Positions 10,001 through 45,578 are shown, counted from the first letter of the stretch. The stretch is DNA of 64,000 nt from Aquihabitans sp. G128 (GCF_019048865.1 NZ_CP077604.1:4216001-4280000), one strand, 5' to 3'. Notes: generated by a model not told the origin, from the sequence alone. Made by a program: numbers and translations.

Positions 10001-10360
10001 GTGATGTCGCAGCGCCGCCCGATGGGCGCACTCGAAACGGCGGTGCTCGAGCACGTGTGGGCAAGCCCTCACGGTTTGACGCCCCGCCAGGTCTTGGATG
10101 CCCTCGAGGGTGACCTTGCCTACACCACCGTCATGACCATCATGAACCGCTTGTGGACCAAGGGCGTTCTCGAGCGTGAACGGGAGGGCAGAGCCTTCCG
10201 GTATGCACCGGTGTTCTCGGAGTCTGAGCTCGTCGCCGGTCGGATGGCCAAGGCGCTTGAGGTGGCTAGCGATCGAGAAGCCACGTTGAGCCGGTTCGTC
10301 CGAGAGCTCACCAACGAGGACGAGGCCCTCCTTCGGTCGCTGTTGCGCAAGGAAGGCTGA
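10001..10360 (+). CDS. BlaI/MecI/CopY-family transcriptional repressor
   Basis: The 119-residue protein has the winged-helix domain of BlaI/MecI/CopY repressors (about residues 8-75, including YTTVMTIMNRLWTKGVL) and a short helical dimerisation tail. It has no cysteines, so it lacks the CxC copper-binding tail of enterococcal CopY. Derepression by proteolysis therefore seems more likely than direct metal binding. Its partner would be the M56 protease encoded 2 bases downstream. It is the best candidate for binding the nine TACKAC-N5-GTMGTA palindromes. Either GTG 10001 or ATG 10004 could start it, with GGAGG just upstream. I see no copy of the palindrome before this gene. Confidence 0.88.
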   Translation: MMSQRRPMGALETAVLEHVWASPHGLTPRQVLDALEGDLAYTTVMTIMNRLWTKGVLEREREGRAFRYAPVFSESELVAGRMAKALEVASDREATLSRFVRELTNEDEALLRSLLRKEG

Positions 10361-10362
10361 GG

Positions 10363-11256
10363 GTGTCGTTCGGATTCATCGCCCCGCTCCTGGTGGCCGC
10401 GATGGTTGCGCTGGTCGCCGGTCTTCTGCAGTCGAGGCTTCGCCCCCAGGTCGCCGCGCAGAGCCTCGCGGTTGCTTGCGTCTCAGTCGCCGCAGCCACC
10501 ATCTGGGCCCTGCTCACGTTGGTGCTCGGTGCCCTGGCGGAGAACTCGTTCATTGATCGGTGGTCAGCATGGTGCCCGGAGCTCTACCGCGCCGATGACC
10601 ACGTCTCCGCATGGATCGGCTTGGGCGCAGGACTCATCCTCGGCGCAGTGCTCTACCGGGCAGGTTGCGCCGCACGGCGCGAACGACGGACGCGCCAACG
10701 GCTCCCCGATTGTGAGCACGGCGTGCTCATCTTGGAGAGCGAGCAGCCTGCTGCGTATGCCGTGCCGGGCCGCCGCGGGGGCATCGTCGTGTCTCGGGGG
10801 ATGATCGAAGCCCTTGAGCCCTCGGAGCGTGCGGTCCTGTGGGCGCACGAGCGTTCGCATCTCAACCACAAGCACCACCGGTACCTCGTGGCGACCGAGA
10901 TGGCGGCGGCGATCGTCCCCCCACTTCGGGGCCTGGCGGATCAGGTCCACTTCGCCACCGAGCGTTGGGCCGACGAGGACGCGGCGATGGAGGTTGGTGG
11001 GGATCGGCAGTTGGTTGCTCGGGCCATCGCTCGCGCCGCGATCGCCTCGGTCGACCACGGCCGAACGGCCATGGCAATGGCGGACACCGGCGTCGGCGAC
11101 CGTGTCCGCGCCATGATCGACATCGATCGTCGGTTCCTCGCTCCGGCGATCGGCGCCCTCGTCGGGTTGGTGGTGATGACCTCCACCCTTGCGGGCTCGG
11201 GTCTGCAGCTCCATCACCTCTTGGCCTTCGTCGCTCACGTCTGCGGAGGCAGCTGA
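10363..11256 (+). CDS. M56 family (BlaR1/MecR1-like) membrane metallopeptidase
   Basis: The 297-residue protein has membrane segments near residues 5-24, 34-58, 81-100 and 262-285, and the zinc motif HERSH at 162-166. M56 proteins such as BlaR1 sense a signal and cleave the partner BlaI-type repressor. This one lacks a C-terminal penicillin-binding sensor domain, so its signal is unknown; copper or envelope thiol stress would fit the regulon. The GTG start lies 2 bases after the repressor stop, forming a two-gene operon as in many actinobacteria. Confidence 0.85.
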   Translation: MSFGFIAPLLVAAMVALVAGLLQSRLRPQVAAQSLAVACVSVAAATIWALLTLVLGALAENSFIDRWSAWCPELYRADDHVSAWIGLGAGLILGAVLYRAGCAARRERRTRQRLPDCEHGVLILESEQPAAYAVPGRRGGIVVSRGMIEALEPSERAVLWAHERSHLNHKHHRYLVATEMAAAIVPPLRGLADQVHFATERWADEDAAMEVGGDRQLVARAIARAAIASVDHGRTAMAMADTGVGDRVRAMIDIDRRFLAPAIGALVGLVVMTSTLAGSGLQLHHLLAFVAHVCGGS

Positions 11257-11322: not shown

Positions 11323-11985
11323 GTGAGCTTGTACGGATGGGTTTGGAGCCTCGTGGTGGCGGGGGGCGTGGCGGTCGGGTCGGTGTACGTGGTGGCCCCG
11401 GCGTCGATGGCCGTCGAACGGTTCGCCGACCGGCTCGTCTTCGGTGGGTTGGCGGGAGTGCTGGTCGGGAGGGCCGTTGCGATAAGCGCCGGCCAGGCCA
11501 CGTTCAGCGATCCTCTCGGCGGGATCGGCGGCGACGTCGAGTTCTGGTTCGTGGTTGGGGTCCTCGGGGCGTTCGTCGCGCTGGCCTCTCGGCCCGGCCG
11601 GTGGCGCAAGGGGTCGGAACGGCTGAGCGACGTGGCCCCGTGCCTGCTGGCCGCCTTCGGCGTCTTCCAGGTGCTGTGCTGGCTGAGGTCCTACTGCAGT
11701 CCGACCGGGGCTCCCCGTTTCGGTCTGGAGCTGATGCTTGGTGGCGGCCTCGTCGCACTGGCCCTTGCGCTGCACGTGAAGTGGTCGTTGTCGCCGAACG
11801 CGCGAACCGTTCTTGCCGTCGGGGTGATCGCCGGCGACCGCCTGCTCCTGGCGAGCGGGTCGTCTGGGTTGGCCGGGGCCTGGATGTCGGCCCTCGTCCT
11901 TGCCGGGGCGATCGCGTTCCTCGGTCTTCGAGCGGCGCGCGGCTGGCGACTGCGGCAGGCAAGGCGCCACCTGCTTCGTGGCTGA
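11323..11985 (+). CDS. divergent Lgt-like membrane protein
   Basis: The 220-residue protein has about seven hydrophobic segments arranged as in Lgt, with GVLVGRAVAI in the position of the first conserved glycine/arginine helix and a DVAPCLLAAFG helix. The Lgt signature RIGNxxNxExxG is not present; the region reads FQVLCWLRSYCSPTG instead. It may be a catalytically altered lipid-binding relative. Similar degeneracy is seen in 17120-17836. The GTG start follows CGGAGGG and operator 5. Assignment to the Lgt superfamily rests on topology and weak motif similarity. Confidence 0.55.
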   Translation: MSLYGWVWSLVVAGGVAVGSVYVVAPASMAVERFADRLVFGGLAGVLVGRAVAISAGQATFSDPLGGIGGDVEFWFVVGVLGAFVALASRPGRWRKGSERLSDVAPCLLAAFGVFQVLCWLRSYCSPTGAPRFGLELMLGGGLVALALALHVKWSLSPNARTVLAVGVIAGDRLLLASGSSGLAGAWMSALVLAGAIAFLGLRAARGWRLRQARRHLLRG

Positions 11986-12201: not shown

Positions 12202-12222
12202 CCCGGGGGTCATGGCTGATCT

Positions 12223-12242
12223 ACTACACACTGTCGTAGTAA
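12223..12242. promoter_or_regulatory. BlaI-type operator 7
   Basis: TACTAC-ACACT-GTCGTA, followed by GTA, keeps the 5-base spacing and ends 9 bases before the ATG of the acetyltransferase gene at 12252. It heads a five-gene run to 16492. Confidence 0.75.
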
Positions 12243-12251
12243 GGTCTGGGG

Positions 12252-12926
12252 ATGGCTCTGCTGGCACCCGCCGAGGAATCGACCTTGACCCTGCGACTGG
12301 TCGAGCTCGGCGACGTCGGGCCGACGGCGAGGCTCCATGCCAAGGCACTCCCTGGAAGCTTCTTCGTCTCCCTTGGCCCACGCTTCCTGCGGGCCTACCA
12401 CCGCACCTTCCTCACCAGCCCCGCAGGGATCGCACTGCTCGCTGAATGCGACGGGATGACCGTCGGCTTCGTGGTGGGTACCGTCGACGAAGCCACGCAC
12501 TATCGACACGTCGTCCGCCGGGACCGGACGGCACTGGGCGTACGAGGTATCGCATCGCTCGCCAGCCGGCCGGCGTTGGCCGGTCGCTTCGTCAGGACCC
12601 GGCTTCTTCGATACCTCAGAGGCCTCGTCCGCCTCTCGCGTCGCTCGTCGATCACCTGCGCTGATGTCGTCCACCTGCCGACGGCCGGCGTTCTCAGCCA
12701 CATGGCAGTCGATGCCCCGCATCAGGGAGAGGGCATCGGCAGGATCCTCTTGGAGGCGTTCGCCGAAACCGCGAAGGCGCAAGGAGCACGAACCGTTCGG
12801 CTGGCGACGGCAACGGACAACGAGGGAGCCCGCCGCTTCTACGAGCGCGCTGGCTGGCAGCAGGGGGACGAACGCGCGGACGTCGACGGTCGACGTTGGA
12901 TGCACTACTCGCGAGACCTCCGGTGA
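12252..12926 (+). CDS. GNAT family N-acetyltransferase
   Basis: The 224-residue protein carries the GNAT acetyl-CoA binding motif (VDAPHQGEGIGRILLEAF, near residue 160) and the downstream RFYERAGW element in its C-terminal half. The N-terminal half is less typical. The substrate is unknown. It is the first of five genes joined by 4-base overlaps (GTGA, TTGA, GTGA, ATGA), ending at 16492. The operator ends just upstream, so the message may be nearly leaderless. A role in modifying cell-wall or polyamine amines would fit the linked envelope genes, but nothing in the sequence shows this. Confidence 0.75.
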   Translation: MALLAPAEESTLTLRLVELGDVGPTARLHAKALPGSFFVSLGPRFLRAYHRTFLTSPAGIALLAECDGMTVGFVVGTVDEATHYRHVVRRDRTALGVRGIASLASRPALAGRFVRTRLLRYLRGLVRLSRRSSITCADVVHLPTAGVLSHMAVDAPHQGEGIGRILLEAFAETAKAQGARTVRLATATDNEGARRFYERAGWQQGDERADVDGRRWMHYSRDLR

Positions 12927-13954
12927 GGGCACAGCGCACGGTCGCTCTTGGTGGCCTATCGATCGCCTTGCTGCTTGCTGGATGCGGGGGCGGCGCGCGG
13001 TCGGCAACCCCTAGCAGCGACCCGAGGGCGAGCACCACGACCTCGACGGTGCTGGCGGCCGACACCTCGAGACCGGCGGTCTCCACCTCGACTCCAACTT
13101 CTACCTCGTCGACGACTTCGACCACGATCGCACCAGAGCCAACCCTGTACGCGCCGCCGCCGGGCGAGCCTGAGGCAGACCTCAAGTCCGCGGCCGCACG
13201 GTTTCTCGAGACGCTGACCACGTTCGGTCCTGGCGGTGCCCAGGAGGCATCTAGCCGAGCCCGGCTCGCGGGTGCCGGCTACGACCCCTCGCTGGCGATG
13301 CAGGCGCCACTGCTTCTCGCCGGTGCCGAGGAGTCGGTCGGAGAGATCGTGTACCCGCAGCTCGGAGGCCTGACGGGTGACCAAGCTTCGGTGATGGCGG
13401 TGCTGCGTCTTCGCAGGCGGACCTCCTCAGGCACGACGGAGACCGTCGTGCGCACCGTCGATGTTCGACTCGAACGTAGTGGCGACTGGAAGGTCACCGG
13501 AGTTGCATCCGACGGAGGCACGGCTCCGCTCGCTGCACGGCCAGACGGTCTGGCTGCGGAAGTGCTGCAGAGCCCTCGGCTCGAGATGTCCGACTCGGCG
13601 CGATGGGACGTTGCGGCGGGTCGTATCGACCAGAGGATCTTGCAACTGGTCCTGGACCTTTCCGCAACGAAGAGCCTGAGCATCACGGTCTTCGCATCGG
13701 GACATCCGACCAACGTGTTCGGCGAGAGCTCCGTGTCCAACCACACGCAAGGCCGGGGCGTCGACATCTGGGCAGTCGACGGCAAGCCGGTCGCAGGGTC
13801 TCAACCCGATGGCCCCGCCCACGAGGTTGCGGCGTCGGCTCTGGCTGCGGGCGCGACCGAGCTCGGTGCTCCCTGGGATCTCGACGGTCCCGGCGGACCG
13901 TCGTTCACCAACGCCTTGCATGCGGATCACCTCCACATCGCCTACGACAGTTGA
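12923..13954 (+). CDS. lipoprotein with C-terminal M15-like (LAS) peptidase domain
   Basis: The 343-residue lipoprotein has a signal peptide with lipobox LLAGC (Cys21), a Ser/Thr-rich linker (about 40-70) and a C-terminal domain with HTQGRGVDIW and LHADHLHI. The H...D...HxDHxH pattern is that of LAS/M15 zinc DD-peptidases that trim peptidoglycan, with the last motif at residues 333-338. GTG 12923 was chosen because it overlaps the previous stop and leaves a standard signal peptide. An ATG at 12896 would add nine residues. Peptidoglycan is the inferred substrate. Confidence 0.75.
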   Translation: MRAQRTVALGGLSIALLLAGCGGGARSATPSSDPRASTTTSTVLAADTSRPAVSTSTPTSTSSTTSTTIAPEPTLYAPPPGEPEADLKSAAARFLETLTTFGPGGAQEASSRARLAGAGYDPSLAMQAPLLLAGAEESVGEIVYPQLGGLTGDQASVMAVLRLRRRTSSGTTETVVRTVDVRLERSGDWKVTGVASDGGTAPLAARPDGLAAEVLQSPRLEMSDSARWDVAAGRIDQRILQLVLDLSATKSLSITVFASGHPTNVFGESSVSNHTQGRGVDIWAVDGKPVAGSQPDGPAHEVAASALAAGATELGAPWDLDGPGGPSFTNALHADHLHIAYDS

Positions 13955-15504
13955 CCGATCCATCGCTCTCCCGACCCGCTCTCGGGATGGCCCTGGCAAC
14001 AGGAGCGAGCCGAGCGACTGGTTTCTTCAGGACCGCCGCCCTCGCATCGGTGCTGGGGGTCACGGGCCTCGGCGATGCGTACAACACGGCGAACACCATC
14101 CCCAACATGGTCTTCACGCTGGTCGTCGGCGGTGTGCTCACGGCCGCTGTCGTTCCGATCCTCGTCCAGTCGCACGCTCTGCAGCCCGATGAACCGTCCG
14201 CAGCGAGCGCGCTCCTCGGTGTCACGCTGGTCGTCGGCATCCTCGCCAGCGTCGCCGTCGCCGTGTCTGCACCAGCGCTCGTGCGGGCCCTCACTGCGGG
14301 CGCCTCGGACCGAGCCGGCTACGAGGCCTACGTGGCGCTGACAACGAGTTGGCTTCGCTGGTTCGCTCCACAGATCGGGCTCTACGCCCTTGGGGTACTC
14401 GCCGTCAGCATCATGACGGCGAAGCGGCGTCTGTTCCTCGGGGCTGCCGCCCCCATCGCCACGAACCTCATCACCATCGGAGTGACGCTCTCCGTGGTGG
14501 GTGGCGGTGGAAGCGTTCGAGGTGGCGTGGGCAAGATCGACCCAGGCACCGTGTCGGCGCTCGGCGCAGGTACGACCTTCGCCGTCGCTGTGGCCACCGT
14601 GGTCCAGCTGTGGGGGGCATGGCGAGCAGTGCCGGGTCTTCGGCCGCACTGGAACCCTGGTCACGTTGCGGTGCGCGGCCTCGGTCGGCGTGCCGGGTGG
14701 ATGCTGCTCTACGTCGGAGCGAACCAAGTGGGGCTGACCCTCGTCGTCGCCATCGCCACGTCCACCCCGGGTGGGGTGTCGGCCTACCAGTGGGCCTTCA
14801 CCTTGATGCAACTGCCGTACGCCCTCATTGCCGTGTCCATCATGTCGGCGGCTTACCCAGCAATCAGCCGGGCGGTCGAGGCAACGGTCAGCGTTGCCCC
14901 GGCGGTGCGTCGGACGATGACGTCGACCTTTCGGCTACTCGTACCGGCGGCGATCGGTTTGGCCATGTTGGCTACGCCGATCGCCATCGTGCTGGTTGGA
15001 AGGAGTGGGGCAGGACTGGTCGCCGCTGCGGCCCTCGGCTTCGCGGTATCGCTCATCCCGTTCACTGCCTTCCAGCTGCTCACGAGGGTTTGCTACGCCC
15101 ACCATGACACCCGCGGCCCGGCATTTGTGAACGTCGCTGTCAACCTGGTGAACGTCGGAGCAGCGTTCGGGCTGGTCGCCGTTGCTTCCTCAGCGACCCA
15201 GGTCCTCGGCGGCCTGGCCCTCGCCCACGCAACGTCCTACGGGGTCGGGGTCTTGTTGCTGGTTGCCAAGCTCGCTCACCGTCAGATCTTGACCTTTCAG
15301 GATCTGTTCGCCGGTCACTTGGGAACCTTCGCCGCTGCTGCGTTCATGGGGTTCGTCGTTTGGGTCGGCAACCAAACGGCCGGTCCTGTCGGCTCGCGCA
15401 CAGAAGCTCTGGTGGTGACCGGAGCGCTGTCGGCCCTGGGCCTCGCGACCTTTGCGGTGGGCACGAAGGTCTCCCGGGTCTTGACGGGTTGGAATCGGCC
15501 GTGA
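13951..15504 (+). CDS. MurJ/MviN-like polytopic membrane protein
   Basis: The 517-residue protein has about 14 hydrophobic segments and the MurJ/MviN opening (GASRATGFFRTAALASVLG, then DAYNTANTIPN). MurJ flips lipid II, the peptidoglycan precursor, across the membrane. As an accessory copy in a metal-regulated operon, its true cargo is uncertain. TTG 13951 is chosen because it overlaps the previous stop (TTGA), matching the 4-base overlaps throughout this operon. ATG 13987 is the alternative and removes 12 residues before the conserved opening. Confidence 0.82.
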   Translation: MTDPSLSRPALGMALATGASRATGFFRTAALASVLGVTGLGDAYNTANTIPNMVFTLVVGGVLTAAVVPILVQSHALQPDEPSAASALLGVTLVVGILASVAVAVSAPALVRALTAGASDRAGYEAYVALTTSWLRWFAPQIGLYALGVLAVSIMTAKRRLFLGAAAPIATNLITIGVTLSVVGGGGSVRGGVGKIDPGTVSALGAGTTFAVAVATVVQLWGAWRAVPGLRPHWNPGHVAVRGLGRRAGWMLLYVGANQVGLTLVVAIATSTPGGVSAYQWAFTLMQLPYALIAVSIMSAAYPAISRAVEATVSVAPAVRRTMTSTFRLLVPAAIGLAMLATPIAIVLVGRSGAGLVAAAALGFAVSLIPFTAFQLLTRVCYAHHDTRGPAFVNVAVNLVNVGAAFGLVAVASSATQVLGGLALAHATSYGVGVLLLVAKLAHRQILTFQDLFAGHLGTFAAAAFMGFVVWVGNQTAGPVGSRTEALVVTGALSALGLATFAVGTKVSRVLTGWNRP

Positions 15505-16193
15505 ACATCCACATCCAGCGTTGCCCAGTGCCGAGGTTGCGGGAGCGCGACGTGTTGATCTTCTCCTCAGTTCTGGCTCGATGTCACGAGGGAGATTCGT
15601 TGTACCGCTCCCTGATGCCCAACGAGGCCGATCGTGCTCAGCAGCTCGTTGCCATGTTCGAACACGACATCCGTGTGGGGCTGGGGCGAGCGCAGGCGAT
15701 CTTCGAGGAGGGCAGGCGAGCGATCTCGTTCTGGCACCCTCCAAACGGAACCCGCCCCCGGTTCCCCATGCCCGGAGCGGTGCCAGCGGCCCGACCCGTT
15801 CTCAGAGGCCGGCTCTGGCGAGCGCAACGTTCGTTGGGTCGAGCCGAACAGCGGCTCGCACCCGCTGATCACTGGTTCCTCAGTCACTTCGCTGTCTCGC
15901 CGTCGGTGCAGGGGCGCGGCATAGGTGCCTCGATGCTTCGGGCGGGGCTCGACCTGGTCGATGCCGACGGACGAAGTTGTTGGCTCGAGACGACCCGGTC
16001 CAGCGATAGCTCGTTCTACGAGTGCGCCGGGTTCGTCACCGTTGCCGTCCTGACCGCTGCTGGCGTTCCCGCGACTGCGGTCATGCGGCGAGAGGCACGG
16101 ATCCGTCCCAACTCCGATGGTGCAGGCCCCCAGCTGAGCGGGCCCGCAGGACTGTGGCCAATGTCTGTCGATCTCTCTAGGAGCAAATCATGA
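15501..16193 (+). CDS. GNAT family N-acetyltransferase
   Basis: The 230-residue protein has the GNAT acetyl-CoA motif (VSPSVQGRGIGASML, about residues 132-146) and a following SSFYECAGF element. It is unrelated in its N-terminal part to the acetyltransferase at 12252. GTG 15501 overlaps the MurJ-like stop (GTGA). The substrate is unknown. Two acetyltransferases flanking cell-wall genes in one operon suggest surface-polymer or precursor acetylation, which is inference. Confidence 0.72.
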   Translation: MNIHIQRCPVPRLRERDVLIFSSVLARCHEGDSLYRSLMPNEADRAQQLVAMFEHDIRVGLGRAQAIFEEGRRAISFWHPPNGTRPRFPMPGAVPAARPVLRGRLWRAQRSLGRAEQRLAPADHWFLSHFAVSPSVQGRGIGASMLRAGLDLVDADGRSCWLETTRSSDSSFYECAGFVTVAVLTAAGVPATAVMRREARIRPNSDGAGPQLSGPAGLWPMSVDLSRSKS

Positions 16194-16492
16194 AGGTTCT
16201 GATGTTCGGCGTCGCAATCGCTCTCGCCGTCGCTCTCGGTGGCTGTACCAACATCAACCGGGGCCCTTCGAGCTACACCTCATCTGTCCGCCGAGACTTC
16301 CTCCGCGGCTGTGAGCAACAGTCCGAGCGCGATGGCGTTCGGCGGCCAGTGGCGATGTGCACGTGCGCCTACGACCGGCTCCGGTCCTCGCTGCCCTTCG
16401 GGGAGTTCCGCGATCTCAACGATCGATTGACGGATCGACCAGCGCCGCTGCCGCTCGAGGTACGTCTGCTGTTCCGGACGTGTCTGGAGTGA
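16190..16492 (+). CDS. small cysteine-containing lipoprotein
   Basis: The 100-residue protein has a signal peptide and lipobox ALGGC (Cys19). The mature part has further cysteines in GCEQQS, MCTCAY and the C-terminal RTCLE, spaced in a way that allows disulfides. I do not recognise a family. It overlaps the previous gene by ATGA and ends the operon. Its cysteines would make it a candidate client for the TlpA/CcdA thiol system encoded next. Confidence 0.6.
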   Translation: MKVLMFGVAIALAVALGGCTNINRGPSSYTSSVRRDFLRGCEQQSERDGVRRPVAMCTCAYDRLRSSLPFGEFRDLNDRLTDRPAPLPLEVRLLFRTCLE

Positions 16493-16553: not shown

Positions 16554-16570
16554 TACGACATACTGTCGTA
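16554..16570. promoter_or_regulatory. BlaI-type operator 8 abutting a start codon
   Basis: TACGAC-ATACT-GTCGTA is a perfect palindrome (8-base arms when read as CTACGACA/TGTCGTAG). It ends one base before ATG 16572, so the repressor would cover the translation start, and the transcript is probably leaderless or the true start lies inside the gene. Confidence 0.8.
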
Positions 16571-16571
16571 G

Positions 16572-17123
16572 ATGGGAGATCGGCCGGTCACGGTTCGTCG
16601 GGCACGGTCGTGGCTGACCTGCGTCGTGGTGCTCGTCGTGGTCGCGGCCGTGGGCGCCGCCGCTCTGCGGGAGCCGGCACCCACATCCTTCAGCGCCTCG
16701 GGGGCGCCGCGAAGGATGCCGGAGGCGGGGACGTTTCCGAACGTCGGGGAGCAGGACTTCGAGGGGATCCTGGTCGGCCTTCGTGGCAAGCCGGTCGTGG
16801 TCAACGTCTGGGCGTCGTGGTGCGCTCCGTGTCGCACGGAGATGCCGCTGCTGCAACGAGCCGCCGATACCTACGGAGACCGCGTCGTGGTTCTCGGCGT
16901 TGCATCGAAGGATGATCCAGCGGCGGCTCAAGGGTTCCTCGATGACTTCGGATTGACCTATCCGAACGTCTTCGACTCCACGGGTCGCATCCGCGTGGCG
17001 CTGCAGGTCAGTGCGTACCCGACGACCTATGTCTTCGACCGCCGCGGAGCGTTGGTGAGCACGGTGAAGGGCGGCGTCTCGGAGCAACGGTTGGCTGCCC
17101 TCATCGAAGGGACGCTCAGATGA
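16572..17123 (+). CDS. TlpA/ResA-type membrane-anchored thioredoxin
   Basis: The 183-residue protein has one N-terminal membrane anchor (about 14-32) and an extracytoplasmic thioredoxin fold with the active site WCAPC (Cys84 and Cys87) and the cis-proline segment AYPTTYVFD. TlpA-like proteins reduce disulfides outside the membrane, often for cytochrome c or copper-site assembly, and draw electrons from CcdA/DsbD. A CcdA gene lies two genes downstream in the same operon. It is the first gene of a six-gene coupled run to 20482, with operator 8 directly at its start. Confidence 0.85.
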   Translation: MGDRPVTVRRARSWLTCVVVLVVVAAVGAAALREPAPTSFSASGAPRRMPEAGTFPNVGEQDFEGILVGLRGKPVVVNVWASWCAPCRTEMPLLQRAADTYGDRVVVLGVASKDDPAAAQGFLDDFGLTYPNVFDSTGRIRVALQVSAYPTTYVFDRRGALVSTVKGGVSEQRLAALIEGTLR

Positions 17124-17836
17124 TGGACTTCGGGCTGCTGATGAGCGTGATCGTCGCCCTGGCCGTCCCGGCAGCGCTGGCGCGGCGACGGCCCTTGCTG
17201 GGCTTCGAAGAGGGTGAGTCGGTCATCGATGTCTTCGTCGTCCCAGGAGCAGTGGGCCTCTTGGTCGGGAGGCTCGTGACCTTGGCCCTGGATGACCCCC
17301 GATCGATCGGGGGTCTGTCTGACATGTTGGTCATCCGCAGTGGTGTCGAGTTCTGGCCAGCTGTGCTATCGGCTGCGCTTGTCGTCGCATGGCAATCCCG
17401 ACGTGCTGGCGTCCAAGCATTGACGCGGCTCGCTGGCCTCGCGCCCTGGGCCATGGTCGGCTACGCGTCCTACGAAGCGGCCTGCATCTTTCGGGACGGA
17501 TGCTTTGGTCCGGTCGGCTCGCTCGGTCTGAAGCCGGACGGGATGGACCAGCGAATGTTCCCAATCGGTCTGGCCCTCGGGGTGGCGGTCGCTTCTGCTG
17601 CGGCCTTCGTCACGTGGGTTCATCGCCTCGGTTGGCCGCCACTCGCCATCGTCGCCAGTGCCACGGCCTTGGTGGCGCTCGCACGCAGTTGGGCGTCGAT
17701 CTGGCTTCCTCGGGTCGGCGAGGCGATGACCCGCCAACAGCGAAGCTCGATCGTGGTCGCGATCCTCGCTGCCACCGCTTGTCTCGTCGAGGTCTGGTTG
17801 CAGCGGCACCAGAGGACATCGGTGGTGTCGGCGTGA
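17120..17836 (+). CDS. divergent Lgt-like membrane protein
   Basis: The 238-residue protein has about seven membrane segments and an Lgt-like layout (GAVGLLVGRLVTLAL, then a segment with CIFRDGCFGPVG where Lgt has its RIGNF signature). Catalytic Lgt residues are not conserved. It resembles 11323-11985 in size and design. Its start overlaps the TlpA stop by ATGA, and its end overlaps ccdA by GTGA, so it is locked into the thiol operon. A lipid- or lipoprotein-related function is possible but unproven. Confidence 0.55.
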   Translation: MMDFGLLMSVIVALAVPAALARRRPLLGFEEGESVIDVFVVPGAVGLLVGRLVTLALDDPRSIGGLSDMLVIRSGVEFWPAVLSAALVVAWQSRRAGVQALTRLAGLAPWAMVGYASYEAACIFRDGCFGPVGSLGLKPDGMDQRMFPIGLALGVAVASAAAFVTWVHRLGWPPLAIVASATALVALARSWASIWLPRVGEAMTRQQRSSIVVAILAATACLVEVWLQRHQRTSVVSA

Positions 17837-22475: not shown

Positions 22476-22728
22476 GTCCTCGAGGCCCCGGCCAAGTCGG
22501 GCCGGCTGGTTCAGGCGGCTGCCCTCGGTTTTGTCGAGCCCGGAGGGACTGTCGGTCCCCACCGACGGTCGATCGCTGGCCGGAGCGACAGAGTAAGCAG
22601 GCCCTCGACCGAAGCGGGATGGTCGCGTATCATCCAGGGCGCAGTGCTCGGGTTTGCCGATTGGACGTCTCGGCCCGAGTTCGTTGCCGCTCGGTGTCCC
22701 TTTCGTGAGTCTCCGAAGGGAACCGGCC

Positions 22729-23912
22729 ATGCGCGGCAGCATCCAGAAGAAGGGCACGCGTTGGTACGCGGTCGTGTACGACGGAGTGAACCCGAAGACC
22801 GGGAACTACGTCCGCCGGTGGGTTCCCGCCGGCACCCGGCGCTCCGATGCCGAGAAAGTGCTCGCCGACCTGGTGAAGCGGAGCCACGGCGGTGAGACCG
22901 TGGTGAGCGAGCGCACGACCCTCGGCGAGTATCTGACCGAGCGGTGGCTGCCGATCCAGAAGGCGCGCCTGCGCGCTGGGACCTTTGACTCGTACCGTCG
23001 AAACGTCGAGCTTCACGTTCTGCCGGCGTTGGGCCTGCGCCCGCTCGACCGGCTGAGCGTCGAGGACATCGACCTCTTCTACGCCCAGCTCCTCACCACC
23101 GGGCGCAAGAGCAATAAAGGCCACGGCGAGGGACTCAGCCCGAAGACAGTCCACAACATCCACGTGATGCTCAACAAGGCCATGAGCGATGCCCACCGGA
23201 AGGGCACCGTCGTCCGCAACGTGGTGGCCCTGGCTGACGCCCCGTCGGTGGGAGCTCGCAAGCGGGCCGAGATCCGAGCCTGGGAAGCGGCGCAGCTCGC
23301 GGTGTTCTTGGATGCGACGGAGACCACCGACTCCATCCGGCGTTCCACCTGTCGTCGCACACAGGGATGCGCCGAGGCGAGGTGTTGGGGTTGAGGTGGG
23401 GGGACATCGATGTCGACAACGCTCGGCTCTCAGTCCGCCAGGCGCTGATCTCGGTTGCGTACGAGGCGCAGATCTCCGACGTGAAGACCGGGGCTGGTCG
23501 GCGGGTGATCGACCTGGACCCAGGCACCGTGGGCGTGCTGCTGGAGTGGCGCAACAGGCGGGGTGAGGAGCAGGGTGGTCGGAAGACCGGAGCCGAGGAG
23601 ATCGTGTTCACGAAGGAGGACGGCTCGTGGATCCACCCTGACCTCTTCAGCCAGAGCTTCGACCGGGCGGTTGCGAAGCTCGACCTGCCGAGGATCTCGC
23701 TGCACGACCTCCGCCACACCCACGCCACGCTCCTCCTCAAAGCCGGCGTGCCGGTAAAGGTGGTGAGCGAACGACTCGGCCACGCCAACGTCGCGTTCAC
23801 CATGAGCGTCTACCAACACGTCCTCCCCGGCATGCAGGCCGAGGCGGCCGAGGTGTTCGCTCAGCTGCTGTCGGATCGCAGCTCCACCGACGAGGAGCCG
23901 GACGATGCGTGA
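22729..23912 (+). pseudogene. tyrosine integrase, frameshifted
   Basis: ATG 22729 opens a typical phage/ICE-type integrase (MRGSIQKKGTRWYAVVYDG). It has an arm-binding AP2-like domain, an N-terminal core-binding SAM-like domain and a C-terminal catalytic domain with R (TGMRRGEVLGLRW), HDLRH, LGHANVAF and the tyrosine nucleophile in MSVYQHV. The N-terminal part stays in frame to about 23335, and the catalytic part continues in another frame from about 23340. One missing base near TCCATCCGGCG would explain this. It may be dead or a base-call error. The gene sits 475 bases left of a tRNA-fMet attachment core, the usual place for an integrase. Confidence 0.85.
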
Positions 23913-24273: not shown

Positions 24274-24387
24274 GCGGCGCGATACGGGTGGGTACGGACC
24301 GGGAAGAGACGCCCGTTCGAACGAATGAAACCCCAGCTCAGAGGTACTGACCGGTACAGGCAGGGATGGCCCGGGAGGGCGAGTCCT

Positions 24388-24437
24388 GGGCTCATAACCC
24401 GAAGGTCGCAGGTTCAAATCCTGCCCCCGCCACCATC
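24388..24437 (+). other. attachment core: 3' half of initiator tRNA-fMet (CAT)
   Basis: These 50 bases are identical to 45529-45578 and encode the tRNA 3' half through CCA (ends 24435). The anticodon stem has three G-C pairs around CTCATAA, a hallmark of initiator tRNA, followed by the T arm GCAGGTTCAAATCCTGC and acceptor strand CCCCGCC. No matching 5' half (GGCGGGG) precedes it. It is therefore an integration-generated remnant rather than a working tRNA. The intact gene should lie left of the window. Confidence 0.82.
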
Positions 24438-45528: not shown

Positions 45529-45578
45529 GGGCTCATAACCCGAAGGTCGCAGGTTCAAATCCTGCCCCCGCCACCATC
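45529..45578 (+). other. attachment core: second 3' half of initiator tRNA-fMet
   Basis: Fifty bases are identical to 24388-24437 and end in the tRNA CCA at 45574-45576. The sequence before it does not supply a 5' half; the base before the shared part differs, so the anticodon stem is not extended in the same way. It marks the right end of the second element. Chromosomal backbone is inferred to start here. Confidence 0.82.

Follow-up and report, generated by a model that had tools for sequence, protein, structure and literature searches.

Copper resistance in bacteria is usually put down to export, oxidation, and sequestration. The copper island of Aquihabitans sp. G128 poses the question of what a MurJ homologue, a peptidase-like lipoprotein, and an acetyltransferase are doing under the same operators as copper genes. 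The window analyzed here is the whole 64,000-nucleotide stretch of this genome (GCF_019048865.1, NZ_CP077604.1:4216001-4280000), and positions are counted from its first letter unless given for the genome.

The operon and its candidate regulator

Five open reading frames on the same strand (12252-16492) are chained by GTGA, TTGA, GTGA, and ATGA stop/start overlaps (Table 1). An earlier note on this DNA had described them as five overlapping genes downstream of a seventh operator; the frames, all four overlaps, and the rank of the operator proved correct.

Table 1. Features of the operon and of the region around it, in window coordinates
Feature	Position	Strand	Remarks
Second lgt of the genome	8254..9189	-	PF01790, 220.6 bits; divergent from the DUF305 gene across operator 9193
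BlaI-family repressor, candidate regulator	10001..10360	+	119 aa, no cysteine; Pfam PF03965
Short M56/M48-like membrane protease	10363..11256	+	297 aa; HERSH zinc motif
BlaI-type operator TACTACACACTGTCGTA	12222..12238		Perfect dyad, 13 bp upstream of the GNAT1 ATG
GNAT1	12252..12926	+	Start ATG; acetyltransferase fold with basic amphipathic helical insertion
Lipoprotein	12923..13954	+	Start GTG; lipobox LLAGC; NTF2-like domain; C-terminal LAS/M15-type zinc-peptidase domain
MurJ paralogue	13951..15504	+	Start TTG; third full-length MurJ of the genome
GNAT2, second acetyltransferase	15501..16193	+	Start GTG; outside the conserved core
Small Cys-rich lipoprotein	16190..16492	+	Start ATG; paralogue in the upstream copper region
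Next perfect operator	16554..16570		Upstream of a TlpA/ResA-like gene (16572-17123)

Allowing up to three mismatches, nine dyads are found in the window (1, 1605, 9193, 9232, 11279, 11993, 12222, 16554, and 20551), all in its first 20.6 kb, the one at 12222 being the seventh. When up to two mismatches to TACKACAnnnYGTMGTA are tolerated, the window contains 18 strand-matches, whereas 0.46 would be expected, and no shuffle out of 100 attained this count. Across the 4.94-Mb genome mismatch-free dyads are restricted to this island and to positions 4176360 and 4176435; the latter two belong to an upstream set (4174438-4178913), 40 kb from the window, which has BlaI-like, M56-like protease, DUF305-like, and copper-ATPase-like genes. 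The genome has just two BlaI genes, which sit in the same two copper regions; from these data we surmise that the regulon is confined to them. That the wall-related genes share their control with copper genes, as had been proposed, is congruent with these data, since the same operators precede both.

The repressor scores 90 bits against the Penicillinase_R domain (PF03965; cut-off 22.6). It falls outside the copper-sensing CopY subgroup (TIGR02698, 35.8 vs 121.95 bits), as it has no cysteine and hence no C-terminal Cys-x-Cys. The protease scores 37 bits against PF01435 (M48), which is above the cut-off, and 12.2 bits against PF05569 (M56), which is below the cut-off of 31; Pfam recognizes in it no transpeptidase or PBP-type sensor domain such as characterizes BlaR1 and MecR1. 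Because BlaI lacks cysteines, any effect of copper on it would be indirect, by way of envelope damage or of the protease, and what triggers this protease-type repressor may be damage to the envelope and not copper as such.

The BlaI-family repressor, its M56-type protease partner, the TACTACA/TGTAGTA dyads, and the PBPs in the modules of relatives are all reminiscent of BlaI-BlaR1 and MecI-MecR1, which control beta-lactamase and PBP2a. Unlike those systems, the protease is short, without a recognized PBP sensor, and linked to copper genes; a flippase, a peptidase, and a GNAT take the place of beta-lactamase; and the dyad halves in this genome are 3 bp apart. The operators of CopY and CopR share the core KACA..YGTM, RNYKACANNYGTMRNY (PMC7253601). 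The window dyads possess this core and copper exporters are among their targets, as in CopY/CopR operons, whereas BlaI here has no Cys-x-Cys metal site, an M56 protease is present, and the half-sites are separated by 3 bp in the window but by 2 bp in most relatives.

Dyads with the 2-bp spacing number 29 in 368 kb of BlaI-positive loci versus one in 1,123 kb of BlaI-negative loci. At nine further loci, in several lineages, a dyad stops 2 bp short of the GNAT1 frame (L034, L037, L038, L042, L043, L044, L047, L048, and L063). At L035, in a genome of the same family, a dyad adjoins the GNAT1 frame; dyads there precede the genes for the lipoprotein, GNAT1, and a copper ATPase, and 3-bp-spaced dyads lie near TlpA and DUF305. 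On the Rhodococcus plasmid L031 a variant dyad, TACTATGnnnCATAGTA, is found 2 bp upstream of the ctaD and TlpA frames. Lipoprotein homologues lie near ctaD, coxB-like, and cytochrome c biogenesis genes on this plasmid, on a second Rhodococcus plasmid (L030), and at L036.

Predicted products of the core genes

GNAT1 scores 57.3 bits against PF00583 (cut-off 20.7), and its AlphaFold model (pLDDT 93) matches GNAT structures in the PDB with Z of about 20, which places it in the GNAT family. The core is interrupted by a helical insertion of some 64 residues (about 78-141), and among 52 relatives the net charge of this insertion ranges from +6 to +16 (mean +9.3), the rest of the protein averaging +1.3. 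In the window protein the insertion contains an amphipathic stretch. Such a basic, amphipathic element is probably membrane-binding and would attach GNAT1 to the inner face of the membrane.

The lipoprotein consists of an NTF2-like domain (residues ~81-200) and a C-terminal domain (~214-343) resembling the hedgehog N-domain, with a zinc motif, H274-x6-D281 and H336-x-H338, which is invariant in 54-59 relatives. The spacing of H333, H336, and H338 is reminiscent of the endopeptidase MepA. Foldseek ranked only NTF2-like chains at the top, and the peptidase domain surfaced only with a second aligner, which superimposed it on hedgehog N-domains with a moderate Z of about 8.3 (rmsd 2.5 over 99 residues), a fold that the motif backs; the alignments used for structure prediction omitted plasmid-record sequences. 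The window protein itself has no Pfam match, nothing useful in NCBIfam, and no match in a PDB sequence search, and no member of the family reaches the Pfam M15, VanY, or Extensin cut-off, the weak matches being to Extensin-like_C (42 of 54) and M15_4 (40 of 54) with a best E of 0.0014. The M15-like character ascribed to the lipoprotein by the earlier note nevertheless agrees with the family and fold evidence. LAS enzymes are defined by the zinc ligands H-x(3-6)-D ... H together with H-x-H (PMC4087270); both motifs and the hedgehog/VanX-like fold are present here, and the protein is therefore likely to be an active peptidoglycan zinc peptidase. It thus resembles the LAS metallopeptidases VanX/VanY, MepA, and LdcB in fold and motif, and differs from them in that the domain is joined to an NTF2-like one within a lipoprotein and belongs to no Pfam family at the curated cut-off.

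The assignment of the third gene product to MurJ was confirmed with Pfam (PF03023, 177.8 bits vs a cut-off of 27.4). Like the MurJ/MviN lipid II flippases it is a full-length MOP-type member of the family, and flipping is predicted; unlike them it is a third, island-borne paralogue from a clade found only in modules, with a changed residue in TM2. Its score on the NCBI equivalog model is below the cut-off (TIGR01695, 187.7 vs 235.55), and the two other full-length MurJs of the genome score 207.0, which also misses, and 236.8, which passes. In the MurJ tree the window protein clusters (support 98/99) with five other module MurJs from Acidimicrobiia/Nitriliruptoria-type genomes, separate from the other two MurJs of its own genome. 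The modules of Pseudonocardia, Brevibacterium, and Nocardiopsidaceae/Streptosporangiaceae use other branches, and module MurJs occupy at least three separate places in the tree. By this phylogeny, MurJ variants have been recruited to the module several times independently, which argues that MurJ function matters to it. Weak members are the MurJ of L041, about 7 kb off and on a long branch, and the distant MOP proteins of L062 and L064. A class-wide MurJ search returned chiefly chromosomal copies and was little informative.

The acidic residue usual in TM2 of chromosomal MurJs is missing from 11 of the 17 better-placed module MurJs, T, V, or M replacing it in several lineages, and the substrate may therefore differ. 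Conceivably, the MurJ homologue flips another lipid-linked glycan, such as a surface polymer that binds metal or has a protective role; the GNAT would N-acetylate the amino sugar of this glycan, and the lipoprotein would anchor the wall or open it for the polymer. The low equivalog score of the window protein and the basic, membrane-type insertion of GNAT1 would suit such a role, which we nonetheless consider unlikely. No glycosyltransferase is recognized in the window operon, and PBPs, VanW, VanY, and M23 genes recur with the module instead; furthermore, in Pseudonocardia the module MurJ scores above the equivalog cut-off (242.8 vs 235.55), and the module MurJs of Nocardiopsidaceae and Streptosporangiaceae retain the acidic residue.

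Recurrence in other actinobacteria

The GNAT and LAS lipoprotein core recurs in Acidimicrobiia, Nocardiopsis, Nonomuraea, Pseudonocardia, and, without MurJ, on Rhodococcus plasmids; a MurJ paralogue accompanies it in some 20 loci. Searching with the lipoprotein family led to 80 genome loci, and searches with MurJ and the lipoprotein revealed plasmid copies in Pseudonocardia and Rhodococcus. A GNAT1 homologue adjoins the lipoprotein gene in 60 of 89 loci, some 50 of these pairs being on the same strand and mostly overlapping or abutting. The order GNAT1-lipoprotein-MurJ is also found in Acidimicrobiales (L039), Nitriliruptorales (L051), another actinobacterium (L056), and Pseudonocardia (L010, L028, L095, and L116); Nocardiopsidaceae and Streptosporangiaceae have the same genes, chiefly divergent and adjoining BlaI-M56. 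Pairs beyond Actinomycetota were seen in Pelagibacterium (L068 and L113) and in a MAG labelled Planctomycetota (L041), which suggests wide horizontal transfer or, in the case of the MAG, mis-binning.

A wall role of the set is strengthened by the PBP, VanW, VanY, and M23 genes in the modules of relatives. Class A PBPs (transglycosylase plus transpeptidase) are found near the Pseudonocardia module and between the GNAT and lipoprotein genes in the Rhodococcus contigs L101 and L105; at L035 the genes for GNAT1 and MurJ flank one for a class B PBP, and that copper island also has a VanY-like gene. The window operon contains no PBP. MurJ, PBP, or VanW genes lie within 10 kb in 31 of 59 loci with the GNAT versus none of 29 without it (p ~1e-7), BlaI plus M56 in 18 versus none, and copper genes in 20 versus two (p 0.008); these counts leave out the window itself and treat related loci as independent, and because the loci are related and many contigs are short, the p-values are indicative only. 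The Jiangella PBPs, 5-9 kb away, may be plain chromosomal neighbors and are included in the counts, though not in the argument from operons.

A set of five metal-linked wall genes, as the earlier note had it, thus stands for GNAT1, the lipoprotein, and MurJ, and falls for GNAT2 and the Cys lipoprotein, both rejected as core members since neither is linked to the module elsewhere. The core is narrowed to GNAT1-lipoprotein-MurJ, with PBPs as a variable part. The gene-neighborhood comparison proposed in that note found this core beside BlaI/M56 and copper genes in other islands, rather than absent from them. The two unlinked genes and the mosaic nature of the island are what one would expect if unrelated genes had merely gathered there by chance without a joint function; because the core recurs, this is very improbable for GNAT1, the lipoprotein, and MurJ, the coupling of GNAT1 to the lipoprotein extending over many actinobacterial families and MurJ having joined several times independently.

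The paralogue of the Cys lipoprotein lies at genome positions 4186887-4187144, in the upstream copper region, and this family of small Cys-containing lipoproteins is present in 31 of 61 related genomes. In several relatives remote GNAT2 homologues (L168/L170) and a chromosomal MurJ are ~6-8 kb apart, with other genes between (1659405 and 1665696 in this genome; 3020426 and 3026697 in G020). A tRNA-Met is found at 24359-24435 of the window, and at least its last 40 bases are repeated 21 kb rightward (~45537-45576); putative recombinase-like ORFs lie at 22654-23912. These are possible integration sites of mobile elements.

Copper genes are within 10 kb of only about one third of the module loci, at several Jiangella loci both BlaI and copper genes are missing from the stretch in view, and a two-component system adjoins some modules instead of BlaI/M56. 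The module could accordingly be a response to wall damage, for example of the beta-lactam type, which merely co-travels with copper genes on plasmids and islands: BlaI/M56 is the classical pair of beta-lactam signaling, relatives possess PBPs, and most GNAT-positive loci show no copper gene. We hold this to be quite unlikely, given that in the window and in L035 operators of this type are placed before genes for copper ATPase, DUF305, or TlpA, that copper genes are enriched near the module, that the short protease has no PBP-type sensor, and that the genome has no BlaI beyond its two copper regions.

A proposed wall module within a copper island

On balance, we favor the reading that the module is an inducible, mobile "spare" set for cell-wall synthesis and remodeling carried by the copper island. 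Its operon, operators, protein families, active-site motifs, recurrence, and independent acquisitions of MurJ are read from sequence. A close comparison is with lgt2/lit2, copper-induced genes found on mobile copper-resistance elements of Listeria and Enterococcus (PMC8275575). In both cases second copies of envelope-biogenesis genes are located inside copper elements, and the window also has a second lgt (the other being at 3625901), copper control being predicted here. The differences are that peptidoglycan genes (MurJ, the LAS peptidase, and PBPs in relatives) rather than lipoprotein acylation genes are carried, that the host is an actinobacterium, and that a protease-type BlaI stands in place of the cysteine-bearing CopY. 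Two further Lgt-like or Lgt-sized membrane proteins are encoded in the island, at 11323-11985 (no family match) and 17120-17836 (20.9 bits, below the cut-off).

For such a spare set we infer the following induction, substrates, activities, and order of events. Envelope stress caused by metal would activate the short M56-type protease, which would clear BlaI from the operators of both the wall operon and the copper genes. With its basic helices holding it at the inner face of the membrane, GNAT1 would acylate an amino group of a lipid-linked wall precursor, and the extra MurJ would flip lipid II or the modified precursor. Polymerization would fall to PBPs, either the cell's own or, in relatives, module-borne ones, and the LAS-type zinc-peptidase lipoprotein would trim stem peptides or cross-links outside.

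The walls of many actinobacteria depend on LD-transpeptidases. Copper inhibits these enzymes (PMC11390936), so that wall growth would continue with a set of PBP, MurJ, and DD-peptidase, which may plausibly explain the link to copper. In its boldest form, which we regard as possible yet doubtful, this would be a dedicated, BlaI-controlled bypass in which a lipid-linked precursor modified by a membrane-bound GNAT, a special MurJ, and PBPs with the LAS lipoprotein make the wall independent of copper-poisoned LD-transpeptidases; if true, target bypass would be added to the known forms of metal resistance. In the literature searched, a limited library and set of terms, no description of a copper-linked MurJ module was found.

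If a recurrent, transferable wall module is under the regulator of copper genes, then the peptidoglycan machinery would be a target that metal islands protect or replace as well. Selection by metals would be tied to the physiology of the wall, and perhaps to tolerance of wall antibiotics, and the module offers a testable role for the uncharacterized GNAT and LAS lipoprotein families of many actinobacteria.
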